64,000 bases of DNA from Acidobacteriaceae bacterium KBS 83 (lineage in GTDB: Bacteria > Acidobacteriota > Terriglobia > Terriglobales > Acidobacteriaceae): the NCBI GenBank assembly GCA_000381585.1, contig KB906734.1, forward strand, positions 434,001 to 498,000. The letters are read 5' to 3'. A program made the translations under genes and the position numbers. Below the pieces are notes generated by a model. It searched no databases. It was not told the origin of the DNA and saw only the letters and a list, made by a program, of their open reading frames with translations. Shown here one piece after another: positions 41,033-48,080 of this stretch (position 1 is its first letter; every line of letters starts with the position of its first letter).

Positions 41033-43474
41033 CTATTCAGTGCGGAGAGCCTGTACGGGATCGATGCGTGTGGCGCGGATGGCCGGCACCAGGCTGGCGA
41101 GGGCGCCGGTGAACAGTAGGACGGTAGCCGCGACGACGGCGATGCCGATATTGAATTCGCCGACACCGAAGAGAAGTCCGCTGATAGCACGGGCAGCGAG
41201 CGCAGCCACGGCGATGCCGGAGATGGTGCCAAGCAGGACGGGGGTGACGCCGTCTTCAAGTATGAGGCGGTAGATCTGCACGGGCTGAGCGCCGAGCGCG
41301 ATGCGGATGCCGAGTTCGCGCGTGCGTTGCAATGCAGAGTAGGCGACAACGCCGTAGATGCCGAGCGCGGCGAGCACGAGCGCGCAGGCGGCGAAGGCGA
41401 GCAGCAGATGAAGCTGGAAGTTGCGCGCGGCGAGCGAGCCGTCGACGATGGTTGCCATGGTGCGGACTTCGGGCACAGGGACCTGGGCGTCGATGCTCCA
41501 GATCGCTTTGCGGATGGCATCCGCGCTCGCTGCGGGGTCGTTCTCAGTACGGATGACGAAAGACCCGTTCTGGTTGGTGCGGTAGGTGAGCGGCACGTAG
41601 ACCATGGCGGGAGCTTGTTTGCTGAGATCCAGCGTGCGAACGTCTCCGACGATGCCAATGACCTGGATGGGCTTTTCATCGGGATCCCCGCGACTGAAGA
41701 ACTGGCCGACGGGATTCTGGTTGTGCCATGTGACACGCGCTGTGCGTTCCGAGATGATAGCGACGTTTTTGCCGAGGTCATCGCGAGTAAGAAAGCGGCC
41801 GGCGAGCAGCGGAATCTGCATGGTCTCGAAGTAGCCGGGACTGATCCAACGGAAGCTGGCAGCGGGGCGCGACCACATCGGGCGTGTGTCGGCAGGTATG
41901 GATATGATGTCGCCCCATTGGTCGCCCGCGAGCGGGAGCACGCTGATGACACCGGCCGAGCTGACCCCGGGTATCTGACGGAAACGGTCCAGAGAGTTTT
42001 TGTAGAACGCTTCGCGCGTTTGCGGCGTGTCGTATTGGTGCCGGGGAAGTACGACGGTGGCGCTGATGACGTGCTCGGTGGTGAAGCCGCGATCGACGCG
42101 TAGCAGGCGATAGAGGCTGAGCAGGAACATGCCGGCGAGGACAACCAAAGTGATACTGGCGGCGACCTCTCCGACGACCAGCACGCGGCGCACCCGCTTA
42201 CCGCCCGTAGATTCTGAAGCAGTGCGGCCTTCAGCGCGCAGCGCCTGCTGGGGATGGCTGCGAACGAAACGGGCCGCAGGCAACAGGCCGCAGAGGAGGG
42301 CGCAGAGCAGTGAGGCGCCGATGGCAAAGAGGACCAGCGGCGCATCCATGCGCAGCGGATGCAGCAGGGGGAGGGCCGAGGGGAGGGCATGGGCAATCGA
42401 GGGGAGAGCTGCGGTCGCGAGCAGGAGCCCGAGCAGGCAGCCGACGGCCGAGAGCAGGAGCGGTTCTGCAACTGCACTGCGCACCAATTGCGCGGGGCTG
42501 GCACCCATCGCGGAGCGGACGGCGGCCTCATGCTCGCGGCTGGCGGCGCGGGCGAGCAACAAATTGGTGATGTTGACGCAGCCGATGAGGAGCACGGTGG
42601 ACACGGCGGCGAGGAGCATGAGCAGAGAGTTGCGGCTTGAACCGGTGAAATACTGTTGCAGGCCGGCGATGGTTGCGCCGAGCGTGACGTGATCCGGGGT
42701 CTGGCGGCCGATGGCCTGCTGCATGGTGTTCATCTCCGCGGCAGCCTGCGCGAGGGAAACGCCAGGTTTCAGGCGGGCGATGCCGAAGTAGTTATGGTCG
42801 CCTTCGATTTCGGCGAGTTGCTCCGCGCTCCATCCGAAGGGCACGAAGGCTTCCAGTGGATGATTCGTGCCGCGAAAGTCACCCAGCAGTTGCGGGTTGG
42901 GCAGGGCGAAGCTCGAAGGCAGTACGCCGATTACGGTGTAGGGGCGGCCATCGAGCGGGATGGCGCGACCGATGATGTTGGGATCGCCGGCAAAGCGGCG
43001 GCGCCAGAGACCTTCAGTAAGGATGACAACATCGTGGCCGGGCTGCTCTTCTGCCGGCAGGAGGGTGCGGCCGAGAATGGGCCGCACGCCAAGCAACGAA
43101 AAGAGATTCGCAGTGTGTGGGGCGACACCGATCTGCTCAGGCTGGCCGCCGCCGCCGAGAGGCACCGATTCCGTGCCGATGGCGGCGAAGCCCTGGAAGG
43201 ACTGCGCGTGCTGCCGCCAATAGAGCAAGTGATTGGCATTGACGGGGAGATCGTTGAAGCTGTCCGGACCGGCGTGGACGGTCTCGCGAATGACTACGAG
43301 CTGCTGGGGCTGGGTGTAGTCCGGCAGGCGCAGCAGGACGTTGCGCACGACGGAGAACATGACGATGTTTGCGCCGATGCAGAGGACGAGGGTAAAAAGA
43401 GCGGTCGCGCTAAAGGCCGGGCTTCGGCGCAACTGTCGAAGTGTGAACCGCAGTTCGCTGAGAAGTCCATGCAT
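41033..43474 (-). CDS. ABC transporter permease, ADOP family (MacB/FtsX-like)
   Basis: An 813-residue permease with the acidobacterial duplicated layout: ELRFTLRQLRRSPAFSATALFTLVLCIGANIVMFSVV at the start, a periplasmic MacB_PCD domain, an FtsX block near residue 280-440 (VLLIGCVNITNLLLARAASREHEAAVRSAMGAS), a second MacB_PCD, and a final FtsX block with ALVLAALGIYGVVAYSALQRTRELGIRIALGAQ and SLVPAIRATRIDPVQALRTE. No ATPase gene is next to it. ATG 43474 is the family-typical start; an upstream in-frame start at 43621 is weaker. A 36-bp TGTCC element lies about 200 bp upstream. Confidence 0.9.
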   Translation of the reverse strand: MHGLLSELRFTLRQLRRSPAFSATALFTLVLCIGANIVMFSVVRNVLLRLPDYTQPQQLVVIRETVHAGPDSFNDLPVNANHLLYWRQHAQSFQGFAAIGTESVPLGGGGQPEQIGVAPHTANLFSLLGVRPILGRTLLPAEEQPGHDVVILTEGLWRRRFAGDPNIIGRAIPLDGRPYTVIGVLPSSFALPNPQLLGDFRGTNHPLEAFVPFGWSAEQLAEIEGDHNYFGIARLKPGVSLAQAAAEMNTMQQAIGRQTPDHVTLGATIAGLQQYFTGSSRNSLLMLLAAVSTVLLIGCVNITNLLLARAASREHEAAVRSAMGASPAQLVRSAVAEPLLLSAVGCLLGLLLATAALPSIAHALPSALPLLHPLRMDAPLVLFAIGASLLCALLCGLLPAARFVRSHPQQALRAEGRTASESTGGKRVRRVLVVGEVAASITLVVLAGMFLLSLYRLLRVDRGFTTEHVISATVVLPRHQYDTPQTREAFYKNSLDRFRQIPGVSSAGVISVLPLAGDQWGDIISIPADTRPMWSRPAASFRWISPGYFETMQIPLLAGRFLTRDDLGKNVAIISERTARVTWHNQNPVGQFFSRGDPDEKPIQVIGIVGDVRTLDLSKQAPAMVYVPLTYRTNQNGSFVIRTENDPAASADAIRKAIWSIDAQVPVPEVRTMATIVDGSLAARNFQLHLLLAFAACALVLAALGIYGVVAYSALQRTRELGIRIALGAQPVQIYRLILEDGVTPVLLGTISGIAVAALAARAISGLLFGVGEFNIGIAVVAATVLLFTGALASLVPAIRATRIDPVQALRTE

Positions 43475-43669: not shown

Positions 43670-43705
43670 TGTCCGCAGACGTTCTGATGTGACCGGATTT
43701 GGACA
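43670..43705 (-). promoter_or_regulatory. TGTCC element, copy A (upstream of ADOP permease)
   Basis: On the minus strand it reads TGTCC-AAA-TCCGG-T-CAC, 14 more bases, then the half-site GGACA, 36 bp in all. On the plus strand the core is the dyad TGACC-N6-GGACA. It lies 196 bp upstream of the permease ATG. A TGGCAC box (complement of 43615-43620) between element and gene looks like a sigma-54 -24 box, but its -12 spacing is off by one. Confidence 0.5.
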
Positions 43706-43788
43706 CCCAGATTTGAAAAGGGGCGCGTTCGCGAGGCGTCCTAACTCAGGCCGCCGGTGCGCTTGCCTGAGCGATTGCGAGTGGCCTT

Positions 43789-44336
43789 TCAATGGCCGGC
43801 TTGCAGCCAGCAGAGCGCGTTGCGCGCGCGGACGCGCATGGCGGGTGTTCCGGTGATGAGCGCCTGATGGAGAAATGGCTCGATCCCGTTGCGCAGGGCC
43901 GGATCTCGACGCGCGAGCAGACCCAGACCTTCGACAGCGGAAGCGCGGACGACGTTGCTTTTGTCTTCACTGAGATGCCAGAGGATTTCGGCAGCGAGTC
44001 GGATTTGCTGGTGAGTGCGGGCTGAGCGCGCGACGACGAGGCCGAGGTGCCAGCGGGTGCGTGATTCGGAGATAGGTATCTCCGCCAGGATCAAGGCCAG
44101 CTCAGCGGCATGCGCGACGAGAAAGGCATCGTCTTTTTCCGTGATGCGGCGAGCTACATCGGCAGCGCGAACGCGCTGCTCCGGATCATTCGTCGAAGCG
44201 CCTGAACGAGTTGGCGCGCGATGCGGCGGCGATCCTGCTGCGCGAGCAGATGCCGTGCCTGCGCGCGGGCGATGGCGAGTCCCCAGCAGGCTGGCTTCAT
44301 CAGATCGTCTTTCAGAGCAGGACGAGTGGCAGGCAT
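43789..44336 (-). pseudogene. HEAT-repeat-like protein, split by a frameshift
   Basis: The start frame (ATG at 44336, MPATRPALKDD) yields AIARAQARHLLAQQDRRRIARQLVQAL, then breaks. The frame one base back continues with NDPEQRVRAADVARRITEKDD, VAHAAELALILAEIPISESRTRWHLGLVVAR, and SNVVRASAVEGLGLLARRDPALRNGIEPFL. Joined, it is about 180 residues of alpha-helical repeats (HEAT/ARM type). The break falls at 44190-44200. It may be a genuine mutation or a base-call error. Function is unknown; proteins of this kind are common, often short, in Acidobacteriaceae. Confidence 0.6.
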
Positions 44337-44494
44337 ACCGGTTTACAGGACCGACGACCATGATTCATTGTATTGGGAGTGCGCGCGCCGTCGGACCGTT
44401 TGACGAACTCTGGGCAGACCCCCGACTTCGCCGTTCTCTCTTCAGCGAGACAGCGGCCCGGCATGACGACACCGAATGGATGATGAAAACGAAG

Positions 44495-44518
44495 AGGCCA
44501 CTCCTTGCGGAGTGGCCT
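44495..44518. terminator. Hairpin terminator (GGCCACTCC family)
   Basis: AGGCCACTCC (44495-44504), loop TTGC, GGAGTGGCCT (44509-44518), then TTCTGTTT. It ends the FG-GAP gene that stops at 44543 on the minus strand, and may block read-through in either direction. Confidence 0.7.
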
Positions 44519-44542
44519 TTCTGTTTGTGTGATGGGAGTGGT

Positions 44543-46012
44543 CTATTTCACAGTGATGTAAGTGACACGGTGAACCTTAATGTGTGCCGCGTCGATGGCG
44601 TAGTAGCCGAGACGATGTACGCCTGGTGAGAGGGTGAGCGTAGCACGCAGTTCGTTGCTGCTACCGTAGCCAACGCGCTTTACGCCATCCACCCAGAGTT
44701 CCATGAAGACTGCCGGGTTCTGGCTGGTTCCATCCGCGAGGATGTTTACCGTGGTTCCGGATTTGAGCCAGGGGCTGCATACATTGATACCGGGCTTGAT
44801 GGGTGCTACGCATGCCCCGCCTGGATATGGACTGGTGTTGGTGAAGATGGTGAAGATGGGCCCGTTGCCCGATCCTGCGGAGAGCATTGCCAGGTCGGTC
44901 TTGCCGTCGCGGTTGTAGTCGCCGAAGACCAGTTCCTCGGGAACGCCGTTTGCGTCAGGCAAGGGCTGGGTGCTGATCACAGCGAAGGATTGTGTCGGGT
45001 CGCCCTGGAGTATTTTGATCTCGGCCCCGGAGGCTGAGGTGGATATGTAGGCAATGTCCGGAAATCCATCTCCATTCATGTCCGCCACAGCAAGGGGACC
45101 GCTCAGCGACGGATCGCCGATCAGTTTGACTTTGAAAGTGCGATCCTTCTGCCCATAGCCGATGCCCAATGTGGGTCCGTTGACCCCTCCGCCGGTTGCA
45201 TCCACGGTGACAAGGAGGTCGCTGACTCCGTCGCGATCCAGATCGGCTGTTTGAATGTTGTCGATCAGGCCGACAGCATTGGCGATGGGTGTAGTTACGA
45301 CGAAGTTGCCATGGCAATCACCATAGGCAACTCTGATCTGCGCCAGAGTCCCGGGCCCGGCTTCAATCCACGCGAGATCCTGGCACCCGTTGCCGTCGTA
45401 GTCGCCAACGGTGAGGTTGTAGGAGCCTCCGGTCCGGCTTGCCGCGGAACCGCCGAGAGTCGCGATCCAATGCGGCCCGGCGAAGCCGCCATGTCCATCG
45501 CCGCTGTAGAGTTCGAGAGCATTCCCATCGAGGATGACCGCGTCGAGATTCTGGTCTCCCGTGAAATCCGCTGTGACGGCCGCCAGAGCGGCGTTGCTGG
45601 AAATCGGAATCTTGCTATGGAGCTGGAAATTGCCGGGGAGCCCGCTCAGATAGTCGGCAAAGGTGCCACCAGTCGCGCCGGAACAGCTTGCGTCCGCGGT
45701 TGTGCTGACCAGCAGATCGTTCTTTCCGTTGTGCTTGAAGTCGCCACCCACCAGCGGGCTCGCCGGGCAATAGGCCGTCGGGATCACCCAGTTGGCATAA
45801 GCGCCTACGCCGTTCGATTTGAAACCATAGATATCCACCGAAGGAGAGACTGCGAGGAAATCGGTAAGGCCGTCGTTATTGAAATCGCCCTGAATGAAGG
45901 AGTGGGTGGAAAAGGGAACGGCCCTGTCTGTCGGTGTGAAGGTGATGTCCTGAGCCAGCGCGGAACTGGCAATCAAGGCAAAGCTCGCTAAGATTGGCAG
46001 CATTCTTTTCAT
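44543..46012 (-). CDS. Secreted FG-GAP/VCBS-repeat propeller protein
   Basis: A 489-residue exported protein: signal peptide MKRMLPILASFALIASSALA, then at least five integrin-like FG-GAP calcium repeats with D-x-N/D-x-D-G: GDFNNDGLTDFLAV, GDYDGNGCQDLAWI, ADLDRDGVSDLLVT, ADMNGDGFPDIAYI, and GDYNRDGKTDLAML. A final Ig-like domain (about residues 400-489) has VCSPWLKSGTTVNILADG and a short beta tail. A calcium-dependent surface or matrix protein is likely. ATG 46012 fits the signal peptide, although the ribosome site (CAGGAGAG) is about 12 nt away; a GTG upstream (46036) is possible. Confidence 0.82.
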   Translation of the reverse strand: MKRMLPILASFALIASSALAQDITFTPTDRAVPFSTHSFIQGDFNNDGLTDFLAVSPSVDIYGFKSNGVGAYANWVIPTAYCPASPLVGGDFKHNGKNDLLVSTTADASCSGATGGTFADYLSGLPGNFQLHSKIPISSNAALAAVTADFTGDQNLDAVILDGNALELYSGDGHGGFAGPHWIATLGGSAASRTGGSYNLTVGDYDGNGCQDLAWIEAGPGTLAQIRVAYGDCHGNFVVTTPIANAVGLIDNIQTADLDRDGVSDLLVTVDATGGGVNGPTLGIGYGQKDRTFKVKLIGDPSLSGPLAVADMNGDGFPDIAYISTSASGAEIKILQGDPTQSFAVISTQPLPDANGVPEELVFGDYNRDGKTDLAMLSAGSGNGPIFTIFTNTSPYPGGACVAPIKPGINVCSPWLKSGTTVNILADGTSQNPAVFMELWVDGVKRVGYGSSNELRATLTLSPGVHRLGYYAIDAAHIKVHRVTYITVK

Positions 46013-46289
46013 GGGCACTTTAAACTCTCCTGCCACAGCAGTGATTTTGGTTGTCTGCCCCGTGTGCTGCTATTTCCTTGCAGCAGACGCGGAGTAGCTG
46101 TGGATCTATGTCGCCGCTGATAACTTGTAGAGGCTCGCAGGTAATTTAGGGAAGTGGCATCTATAACAAGGGAGAGCTAGTGAAGTCTCAGTCAAGAAGG
46201 AAAGAATCGACTTACAACTATCTATGTAACAAGGGGATAGGTGCATTTTGGGAATGCGTATCAAATGCGGAAGAATGGCTGGCTTGTAC

Positions 46290-46323
46290 CACGGAAGTAG
46301 TAGTTTTTACTATTACCTCCGTG
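46290..46323. other. Near-perfect 15-bp hairpin in a 525-bp intergenic region
   Basis: The arms 46290-46304 and 46309-46323 match at 13 of 15 positions around a TTTT loop. No T tract follows, so it is not a standard terminator; it may be an RNA element or protein site. The rest of the 46013-46403 gap (A+T-rich) has no gene I can support. Confidence 0.35.
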
Positions 46324-46403
46324 CGCGCAGATGAGTGATTTGATCGTTCGAGATAGCCGCAGCGAAATGGCTGGGAGATATCGGGAAGCAGTTCTATGAA
46401 GGA

Positions 46404-46433
46404 AAAGGCCACTCCGGGTCAAGTGGCCTTTTT
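46404..46433. terminator. Hairpin terminator with T tract (GGCCACT family)
   Basis: AAAGGCCACT, loop CCGGGTCA, AGTGGCCTTTTTT: a 9-bp stem and a run of Ts on the plus strand, and A/T-rich flanks on the minus strand. It follows the small secreted gene that ends at 46538 on the minus strand. Confidence 0.7.
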
Positions 46434-46537
46434 TATCGTCCCTCGATGCGTTGCTTACTTAGCAGACAGTATTCGTCCCCGTTCTTTGCAGGATCGCACC
46501 ATTCGACGCCCACCTGGACGTTCGTGCGCCAGTTCCA

Positions 46538-46837
46538 TTATTTGCCAATAGAGACGGTGGAATTGCTGCTTAGAATGCTGGATACGACTGTGACGACTGA
46601 ACCGGCAGGATGATGCTCCGTTGCAGTATTGGTGATGATTCGAGTTCCTACAGGCAGCTTCACAGCAAGAACCTCGTCTTCCTTCAAGGTCGCGATCTTA
46701 TCGCCAAGCTTGAGCTCAAGCGGAATACCAGTGTTGTTTTGCAGATTGAACTTAACTTTCTTTTCCGCATGAGCCACAGGCAGCGCGGCGAGAAGAATCA
46801 GTGCGAAGCAGGACGCGAAAGCAGCACGAACTTTCAT
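46538..46837 (-). CDS. Small secreted protein, paralog 1
   Basis: A 99-residue exported protein: signal peptide MKVRAAFASCFALILLAALPVAHA, then a mature domain of 75 residues with KVKFNLQNNTGIPLELKLGDKIATL, VKLPVGTRIITNTATEHHPAG and VSSILSSNSTVSIG. GAGGA precedes the ATG. The mature part aligns along its length with the neighbour at 47257 (PLELK[IL]GDK[IV]ATL, KLPVGTRI[IT]TNTAT, S(N/D)ST(V/L)SI), so it arose by tandem duplication. It is probably a small beta-barrel/beta-sandwich; I do not recognise a family. TTGCA about 49 nt upstream of the ATG and a TGTCC element 214 nt upstream are candidate control sites. Confidence 0.75.
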   Translation of the reverse strand: MKVRAAFASCFALILLAALPVAHAEKKVKFNLQNNTGIPLELKLGDKIATLKEDEVLAVKLPVGTRIITNTATEHHPAGSVVTVVSSILSSNSTVSIGK

Positions 46838-47050
46838 AACACTTCCTCCTCGGTGATGCAGCGCCGCGACGAGCGTCGCTGCGCGTGCAACATAGCTGCA
46901 CGTGATGTGACAATTGACCGGCATATTCGCTTAGCGCACCGCCTTGTGCTGCTCTCTGTTGGGTGGGCGATGAGATAGCAAAGCGCAGGGATGAGTGACG
47001 ATCATGGAGTTGGTGTCTCTGCATCCGGCGGCAGAGAAGGAGCGATTAGG

Positions 47051-47087
47051 TGTCCGATTTCACGCGCGGAGTGGCCGGAAGCGGACA
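47051..47087 (-). promoter_or_regulatory. TGTCC element, copy C (upstream of paralog 1)
   Basis: Minus strand: TGTCC-GCT-TCCGG-C-CAC, then to GGACA, 37 bp. The outer half-sites form a perfect 7-bp inverted repeat (GTGTCCG/CGGACAC). It lies 214 bp upstream of the paralog-1 ATG, just past the terminator of paralog 2. Confidence 0.55.
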
Positions 47088-47132
47088 CTGCGGAGGACAA
47101 CCGCGCCGGCGATCGATAGATGCAAACGCGCG

Positions 47133-47160
47133 AAGGGCCTCTCCATGCGGATTGACCCTT
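47133..47160. terminator. Imperfect hairpin terminator
   Basis: AAGGGCCTCTCC and GGATTGACCCTT pair at 9 of 12 positions around ATGC, followed by CTGTTT. It is the degenerate member of the same hairpin family and follows paralog 2 on the minus strand. Confidence 0.45.
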
Positions 47161-47256
47161 CTGTTTGCAGCGGAAGCAGCCGTTCCGAGCGATAGTGCGC
47201 GGCAACGCTCAGCAGAACCGCGAGGTAGACCCGACAGTATCGCTTGCAGATTGTGG

Positions 47257-47601
47257 CTACTTGATTGACAGCGTCGAGTCGCTATACATACCTGGGATGA
47301 TTTCAGCGATAACGTCGCCGACCTTGTGGTTTGCCGTTGCGGTGTTCGTGGTGATGCGTGTTCCCACCGGCAGTTTCTCACTCACAACCTGGCCTGCCTG
47401 AAGCGTCGCGACCTTATCCCCGATCTTCAACTCCAGCGGGGCGCCGGTGTCGTTGCGGAGATTGATTTTGATGGTTCGCTGTCCATTGCTGCGGTATAGC
47501 GCATGAACAGGTGCAGGAATACTGACCGAGGCATAGGCTGCGGGAAGTGCGGCGAGGAAAAGGATTGCAGCGGAGCTAGTAAGAGCGGTACGAATTTTCA
47601 T
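47257..47601 (-). CDS. Small secreted protein, paralog 2
   Basis: A 114-residue exported protein: signal peptide MKIRTALTSSAAILFLAALPAAYA, a spacer (SVSIPAPVHALYRSNGQ), then TIKINLRNDTGAPLELKIGDKVATLQ, KLPVGTRITTNTATANHKVGDV, and SDSTLSIK. It is the paralog of the 99-residue protein at 46538, with a 15-residue longer mature N-terminus. GGGAG precedes the ATG. TTGCA lies 44 nt upstream of the ATG, and the TGTCC element about 350 nt upstream. No family name. Confidence 0.75.
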   Translation of the reverse strand: MKIRTALTSSAAILFLAALPAAYASVSIPAPVHALYRSNGQRTIKINLRNDTGAPLELKIGDKVATLQAGQVVSEKLPVGTRITTNTATANHKVGDVIAEIIPGMYSDSTLSIK

Positions 47602-47952
47602 GACATCTCCCAGTTGTGTTGTTGCGAATCGGCGCGGGCGGCGCTGCAAATCGCTGTCACCGCCGCCAGTAACGTGCTCGTGAGCAAATACGACGGTTGA
47701 AGTGCACGGTTCAAGTATTTCTGTCGCCTTGTTTTATGTTGTGTGTCCGGTGGCACGAGACAACAAGGAACAGGGACGGGGAGCAAATGTAGGCGGAGCT
47801 GATACAGAGAAAGATCGAATTTGTCATCTCTGCGGCTACGTTCTCCTTATCCTGATTCATGGCACGTCTGCTGCCGAAGTTGTCCGGCGAGTTGTGGCAT
47901 CGAGTTTTCAATCAGTTGCGTGCGCAATGAGGACGCCATCGCGCGATCGCGG

Positions 47953-47988
47953 TGTCCATTCCTGCGCGCGGGTGCCCGGAATCGGACA
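47953..47988 (-). promoter_or_regulatory. TGTCC element, copy B (upstream of paralog 2)
   Basis: Minus strand: TGTCC-GAT-TCCGG-G-CAC, then to GGACA, 36 bp. It is 352 bp upstream of the paralog-2 ATG, immediately after the terminator hairpin of ahcY. Confidence 0.55.
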
Positions 47989-48027
47989 TTGTGGTACTGG
48001 ATCAGTACGAATTGCATACAAATGCGA

Positions 48028-48055
48028 AAAGGTCACTCCTGGCGGAGTGACCTTT
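48028..48055. terminator. Hairpin terminator of ahcY
   Basis: AAAGGTCACTCC, loop TGGC, GGAGTGACCTTT: a perfect 12-bp stem followed by CTTTA. It ends ahcY (stop at 48081, minus strand) and belongs to the same hairpin family as those at 44495 and 46404. Confidence 0.8.
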
Positions 48056-48080
48056 CTTTATTGGTGCTTGGTTCCGTTAC

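Follow-up and report, generated by a model that had tools for sequence, protein, structure and literature searches.

What does a short DNA element do that recurs three times within 4.3 kb, once ahead of a permease gene of the ADOP type and twice ahead of genes for small secreted proteins? The element was found on the minus strand of a 64,000-nucleotide stretch of Acidobacteriaceae bacterium KBS 83 (contig KB906734.1, forward-strand positions 434,001 to 498,000; hereafter the window). Its copies, its distribution, and its gene context were analyzed in the window, elsewhere in the same genome, and in other genomes. We conclude that each element is probably an upstream activating sequence for an NtrC-family enhancer-binding protein (EBP), the most likely one being a response regulator encoded within an efflux operon, and that the genes concerned would form a sigma-54-dependent efflux regulon; binding and activation are inferred from sequence.

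The three copies occupy positions 43670 to 43705 (copy A, TGTCC-N6-GGTCA-N15-GGACA), 47051 to 47087 (copy B, TGTCC-N6-GGCCA-N16-GGACA), and 47953 to 47988 (copy C, TGTCC-N6-GGGCA-N15-GGACA). The original prediction, made from the letters of the window, had proposed 13 fixed positions in a 17-bp core and an outer GGACA half-site 36 to 37 bp along. Pattern matching confirmed both, with 13 of 13 fixed bases and no mismatch in each core (43689 to 43705, 47071 to 47087, and 47972 to 47988) and total lengths of 36, 37, and 36 bp for copies A, B, and C. The distances from the end of the element to the start codon were approximately 195 nt for the permease (ATG at 43474), 213 nt for paralog 1 (46837), and 351 nt for paralog 2 (47601), in line with the predicted 196, 214, and 352 bp. 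The exact 13-base core matched three times in the genome of 6,250,814 bases, all three within this 4.3 kb. Because the pattern was derived from these same copies, that count is inflated, and the independent tests are the rest of the genome and the relatives.

Allowing two mismatches in the core gave four matches in the window against 1.77 expected and did not single out the copies. The 17-mer with one mismatch was not clearly enriched (15 genome matches and 12 in the reversed control), and the bare dyad with one mismatch was at chance level in the window (16 versus 16.2 expected) and showed no more than mild enrichment genome-wide (140 versus 108 per strand). These one-mismatch patterns, being near chance, were dropped for the form with three half-sites. 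Only that architecture stood out: TGTCC-N6-GGNCA-N13..17-GGACA had five genome matches and none in the reversed control, and all five spacers were 15 or 16 long though 13 to 17 were permitted. The general element is thus TGTCC-N6-GGACA-N15/16-GGACA, with the third GGACA approximately 21 bp on, and TCCGG-N-CAC is partly local to the window copies. As a general motif, the core first proposed therefore held only in part; its exact 13 bases occur only here, and the dyad with the third half-site is what recurs.

The permease gene behind copy A (41033 to 43474, minus strand) encodes MacB_PCD and FtsX domains, two stretches of each by domain search, without an N-terminal extension, and its start (MHGLL) is kept in the sister species G001. 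It belongs to a set of 60 full-length ADOP genes in the genome. Outside the window, strict elements lie upstream of another ADOP permease gene (C2:761462) and of an HlyD-type adaptor gene (C4:371271). A score matrix was trained only on elements from other genera in order to avoid circularity, using 14 hand-picked upstream elements and leaving out those of the sister species and five that seemed intragenic (L045, L046, L050, L055, and L056; L050 turned out to lie upstream of an HlyD gene). Scanning the 700 bp upstream of the 60 full-length ADOP genes with this matrix gave scores above 16 for 10 of them, two of which, a divergent pair, share one site; such scores were reached in 1 of 1800 shuffles, and the reversed maximum was 9.0. 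A check for enrichment upstream of ADOP permeases, which had been suggested together with the element, thus came out positive. An N-terminal extension of approximately 75 residues, detected with a hidden Markov model, is present in 27 of the 60 ADOP genes and absent from 33, and the element precedes 10 of the 33 genes that lack the extension but none of the 27 extended genes (Fisher p = 0.0013). The original prediction would have been refuted by copies confined to the duplicated paralog region; the exact 13-base core is so confined, and the general element is not.

The divergent ADOP pair (G000:C1:235394-235715) shares two dyads, at 235524 and 235556, without the usual third half-site, and these possibly act as one enhancer for both directions. 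A sequence-only profile, R1, matched 12 places in the genome; since its training set included elements of this genome, it was not used as proof. Among its matches, G000:C9:219456 and C6:448528 (L173 and L174) are not upstream of ADOP genes, and L173 has a sigma-54 site of score 17. A PadR-like gene, recognized by eye, lies ahead of one extended ADOP gene in L065.

The genome has one sigma-54 gene, rpoN (PF04552, E = 2.2e-58). Contrary to the original prediction that no site near the copies meets the GG-N10-GC spacing, copy A is followed after 75 nt by a sigma-54 type promoter, CGGCAGGAAACGTGCA (43594-43579, minus strand), which is conserved as CGGCAAGAAACGTGCA in G001. In this comparison, the half-sites of copy A and the sigma-54 site are conserved and the DNA between them has diverged, as in a footprint. 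Copy C has two weaker candidates on the minus strand. The site TGGCGTCCTCATTGCG (47938-47923), 14 nt past the element, has a score of 16, the best between copy C and paralog 2, and lies nearer to its element than any site scoring at least 15 at the loci outside this genome. The site CGGCAGCAGACGTGCC (47876-47861), 76 nt past the element, is a weak candidate because its score of 15 was reached in 231 of 1200 shuffled windows; 63 of 1200 reached 16. Copy B, which is kept upstream of the single paralog of G001, has a degenerate sigma-54-like site, TGTCACATCACGTGCA (46897 to 46912, minus strand), with GT in place of the -24 GG, which fails the rule; G001 keeps its -12 half, CACGTGCAG, and not the -24.

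All 10 element-bearing ADOP genes have a GG-N10-GC site, scoring 15 to 19, between the element and the gene. When the scan was restricted to the stretch 20 to 140 nt ahead of the model start, a score of at least 16 was found for 8 of these 10 genes versus 5 of 50 ADOP genes without an element and 63 of 1200 shuffles. Elsewhere, 34 of 40 loci with a permease, adaptor, or ATPase gene had a sigma-54 site scoring at least 15 on the gene side of the element; on the far side, 13 of the 40 had one (p = 1e-8 for the two sides), as did 70 of 800 shuffles.

The three-half-site element is not restricted to this genome. A search of 396 genomes of the phylum gave 59 matches versus 5 for the reversed pattern. 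Outside the window genome, 40 of 58 element loci had a match to an ADOP or MacB-like permease, an HlyD protein, or an ABC ATPase starting within 500 nt (16 of 22 in relatives, 8 of 10 in five genomes of a cross-collection scan, and 16 of 26 in the phylum sample), and 35 of these 40 start at 80 to 140 nt. This count used eight query proteins, including two from tested loci (L178 and L223, which match themselves) and one from the element locus L247, and the near-identical elements L232/L233 and L234/L235 were counted separately; from the 59 phylum matches, 26 new loci were classified, plus five stretches whose genes were named by eye. In one family of the phylum (f29), loci L247 to L249 and L251 (G087, G112, and G379) show many four-half-site matches near genes that look by eye like HlyD, CreD-like, and M16 peptidase genes.

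The cross-collection scan of named genomes, which called for an element together with a sigma-54 site, returned 16 stretches. Nine of these are inside open frames of more than 150 codons and are probably due to chance; L160, L162, L165, and L167 adjoin MacB-like or ABC genes, and the other three are L157, L159, and L161. Organisms with the element beside a MacB-like permease or ABC ATPase gene were two Pontibacter species, Chitinophaga hostae, and Dyadobacter endophyticus. The five genomes that were rescanned had been chosen for holding a match, so that independent evidence comes only from the five additional places in them; L180, L181, L183, and L185 are upstream of permease genes, and the fifth, L177, is not. 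In Pontibacter, the element lies between the permease or ATPase gene and a divergent gene for a homologous regulator, and among the EBPs of the window genome, the regulator of P. beigongshangensis is closest to the operon-borne one (385 versus 282 bits). The control circuit appears to be common to two bacterial phyla. In many genera the element stands before ADOP, MacB-like, and HlyD genes, in most cases with a -24/-12 site after it, and this recurrence supports the earlier proposal of a distal activator site in a sigma-54 system.

A candidate for the activator is encoded in the gene run headed by the C4 element, which consists of genes for HlyD, an ATPase, five ADOP permeases, an ATPase, TolC, a response regulator, a glycoside hydrolase-like protein, and a histidine kinase. 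The regulator (G000:C4:352338-353747), with the histidine kinase nearby, has receiver-AAA+-Fis architecture; the domains PF00158 (Sigma54_activat), PF00072 (receiver), and PF02954 (HTH_8) were identified in L067:9336-10760. The run from HlyD to the regulator is found in the window genome and in G032, G033, G034, G035, and G036, with the genes of the relatives named by eye. In G034, which the strict pattern missed, a relaxed element with a score of 27.6 precedes the HlyD gene. By the same naming by eye, the regulator-kinase pair is approximately 6 kb further on in G018 and follows a TolC-like gene in G005 and G007. Orthologs of the regulator were cleanly separated from paralogs (at least 568 bits versus at most 422) and were found in 29 of 61 genomes; of the 16 genomes that have a strict element, 13 also have the ortholog (Fisher p = 0.003). 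In G018, a four-half-site element (one half-site being TGCCC) and a sigma-54 site of score 18 precede a winged-helix, OmpR-like regulator gene named by eye (L061, G018:C1:1044049), an arrangement hinting at a possible cascade.

The distance from the end of the element to the -24 motif was 39 to 93 in the 34 loci with a score of at least 15, with clusters near 51, 62, and 72 and isolated values at 39, 41, and 93. In an exploratory Rayleigh test at 10.5 bp with 30 loci elsewhere, three of them in the sister species, phasing was marked (R = 0.63, p = 6e-6), though related loci are not independent. The near-identical promoters L233, L235, L238, and L243 had been dropped from this test, which also excluded six loci scoring below 15, the divergent ADOP pair that lacks the third half-site, and window copies B and C. 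The genome's own nine sites were not significant alone (p = 0.3), and the best period over all 39 sites was 11 to 11.5. These distances suggest that element and promoter may be held in helical phase.

One mechanism can accommodate what the computations show, namely the element with its recurrence and gene context, the -24/-12 sites, a sigma-54 factor in the genome, and linkage to a regulator gene. The kinase would sense an envelope signal and phosphorylate the regulator, dimers of which would then occupy the TGTCC-N6-GGACA dyad and, judging from the spacing, the third GGACA half-site two helical turns on. The AAA+ ring would reach sigma-54 holoenzyme at the -24/-12 promoter approximately 40 to 95 bp downstream and open the promoter, as the promoter sequences and their spacing would allow. 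The targets would be the HlyD-ABC-ADOP-TolC operon, in which the regulator is itself encoded, a dispersed subset of the ADOP genes, the window permease among them, and, less surely, the small secreted family.

Several observations weigh against this reading. The -24/-12 sites of copy B and of its G001 counterpart are degenerate (scores of 15 without the -24 GG and of 13, respectively), those of copy C are weak, and a homolog of the small secreted genes in another genus (L236) has none (best score, 12); another homolog, in G035, has no element. Eighteen of the 58 loci lack a permease, adaptor, or ATPase gene; several of these are inside genes and resemble chance matches, and two are small secreted genes. 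Four genomes of family f29 contribute 24 of the 59 phylum matches, and their targets look more varied. The left half-site of the second dyad is poorly conserved in the window genome, and loading of a hexamer on three half-sites is unexplained. No regulator ortholog was detected in G001, G004, and G017, which have strict elements; the assemblies of G001 and G017 are incomplete (85% and 81%), and G004 has a single element match without a permease. When only elements beside permease or HlyD genes are counted, the co-occurrence falls to 10 of 12 genomes (p = 0.009). The six regulators that were read have GAFTDA and not the usual GAFTGA motif; variants of the GAFTGA loop can be active. The genome encodes approximately 15 further EBPs that match the AAA+ domain strongly, so another of them could bind.

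If one of those other EBPs bound the element, it would still be a sigma-54 enhancer, and the operon-borne regulator would be a bystander. The elements beside permeases in G001 and G017, where no ortholog was detected, would fit such a case. We nevertheless consider it unlikely, given the similar gene run in six genera including that of the window, the divergent linkage of regulator and element in Pontibacter, and the co-occurrence of the two across 61 genomes. The dyad form itself suits many dimeric regulators, and the elements might instead be operators of a sigma-70 regulator, either a repressor or an activator of the OmpR or PadR type, with the -24/-12 matches being incidental. The poor sites of copy B, of its G001 counterpart, and of the L236 homolog, and the weak ones of copy C, would be expected in that case. 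The higher frequency of GG-N10-GC sites toward the gene (34 of 40 versus 13 of 40), conservation of the copy A promoter in G001, and the association of the element with an EBP would not, and they make a sigma-70 operator distinctly improbable.

Copies B and C have flanking sequence in common, G001 carries a single gene and a single element, and the 17-mer with one mismatch was not enriched genome-wide (15 versus 12), all of which could mean that B and C are merely duplicated flanking DNA and A a chance resemblance. Such an account is very hard to uphold; it is contradicted by the matrix trained without the genome's own sequences, which found independent elements at other ADOP genes, and it is opposed by the footprint of copy A against G001 and by the small secreted homologs of other genera with an element nearby (L236 and L219). 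It is hardly conceivable that the elements are structured RNAs or riboswitches in leaders. Although a dyad is able to fold and both paralogs have long leaders, an Rfam search at the gathering score gave no match in the window, and transcripts from the predicted promoters would start downstream of the elements and so would not contain them. An upstream activating sequence for the operon-borne regulator remains the reading that we prefer, and the small secreted genes are less certain members of the regulon, because copy B lacks a good -24/-12 promoter.

Both small proteins are predicted to be secreted. Paralog 1 (46538 to 46837, minus strand) has 99 amino acids, and paralog 2 (47257 to 47601, minus strand) has 114 and is 46% identical to it over 113 columns. 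A Pfam search of both gave nothing convincing. The structure of paralog 1 was modeled as all-beta (mean pLDDT 78, two sequences); comparison of this model with the PDB gave no match at E 0.001 or better, and we claim no function. Because G001 carries only a single gene of this kind, together with a single element, copies B and C very probably arose by duplication of a gene plus its element, and copy A is independent, as had been suspected. In the other genus (G427), the L236 homolog has a strict element 155 nt before the gene; a uvrD-like gene, however, lies across the element from the homolog, and it is this gene to which the strict orientation points. A weak homolog in G032 (L219) has a relaxed element with a score of 23.2 that overlaps a divergent reading frame, and it alone among the small secreted genes has a good -24/-12 site (score 17). 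By these sequence criteria, the element is a recurrent neighbor of the predicted family, but the putative sigma-54 promoters are mostly poor.

A wider and more tentative proposal is that a two-component sigma-54 regulon of Acidobacteriota and Bacteroidota, with a three-half-site enhancer placed at helical-turn steps from its promoter, selects one class of orphan ADOP permeases and couples to it a small secreted beta protein, which might be a substrate, a sensor, or an accessory part, in an envelope defence response. We consider this doubtful, the more so as the L236 homolog has no -24/-12 site. If true, it would give ADOP permeases, the roles of which are to our knowledge largely open, their first defined physiological context. 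A defined enhancer, a promoter class, and a candidate two-component system make ADOP induction directly testable and separate the ADOP copies that have sigma-54 enhancers from an N-terminally extended class that lacks them.

Among known systems, GlrR/QseF of enterobacteria has boxes of the form TGTC-N10-GACA, with three putative sites described upstream of glmY (PMC8745638). As described there, it shares with the element studied here a two-component response regulator and kinase, a sigma-54 promoter, and TGTC/GACA half-sites. Unlike GlrR/QseF, the spacing here is TGTC-N8-GACA (alignment A4), a third half-site lies approximately 21 bp on, and the targets are permeases and not a small RNA (PMC8745638). 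The DVU2894/FlrA-type dyad, yGTCA-N6-TGACr, is likewise an EBP dyad with a 6-bp gap, but its half-site sequence differs and its targets, in the account given, are flagellar (PMC4641369). A 2025 survey with promoter matrices predicted sigma-54 control of FtsX-like ABC permeases (COG0577) in Bacteroidia, Opitutia, and Gammaproteobacteria (PMC12316311), which matches our findings in the kind of permease and in the sigma-54 promoters. The terms Acidobacteria, MacB, and TGTCC are absent from the text available for that survey, and its passages on such permeases name no enhancer element or activator; the element and candidate activator presented here may supply both for the control predicted there (PMC12316311). 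Among the titles and abstract openings returned by searches of the open-licence PMC literature, none described a sigma-54 or TGTCC element for ADOP genes.

The region of the three copies also has a series of very similar terminator-like hairpins, of the type AAGGCCACTCC...GGAGTGGCCTT by eye, which end successive genes at 44490-44525, 46395-46437, 47130-47165, and 48020-48056. Copies B and C sit just past two of these hairpins.

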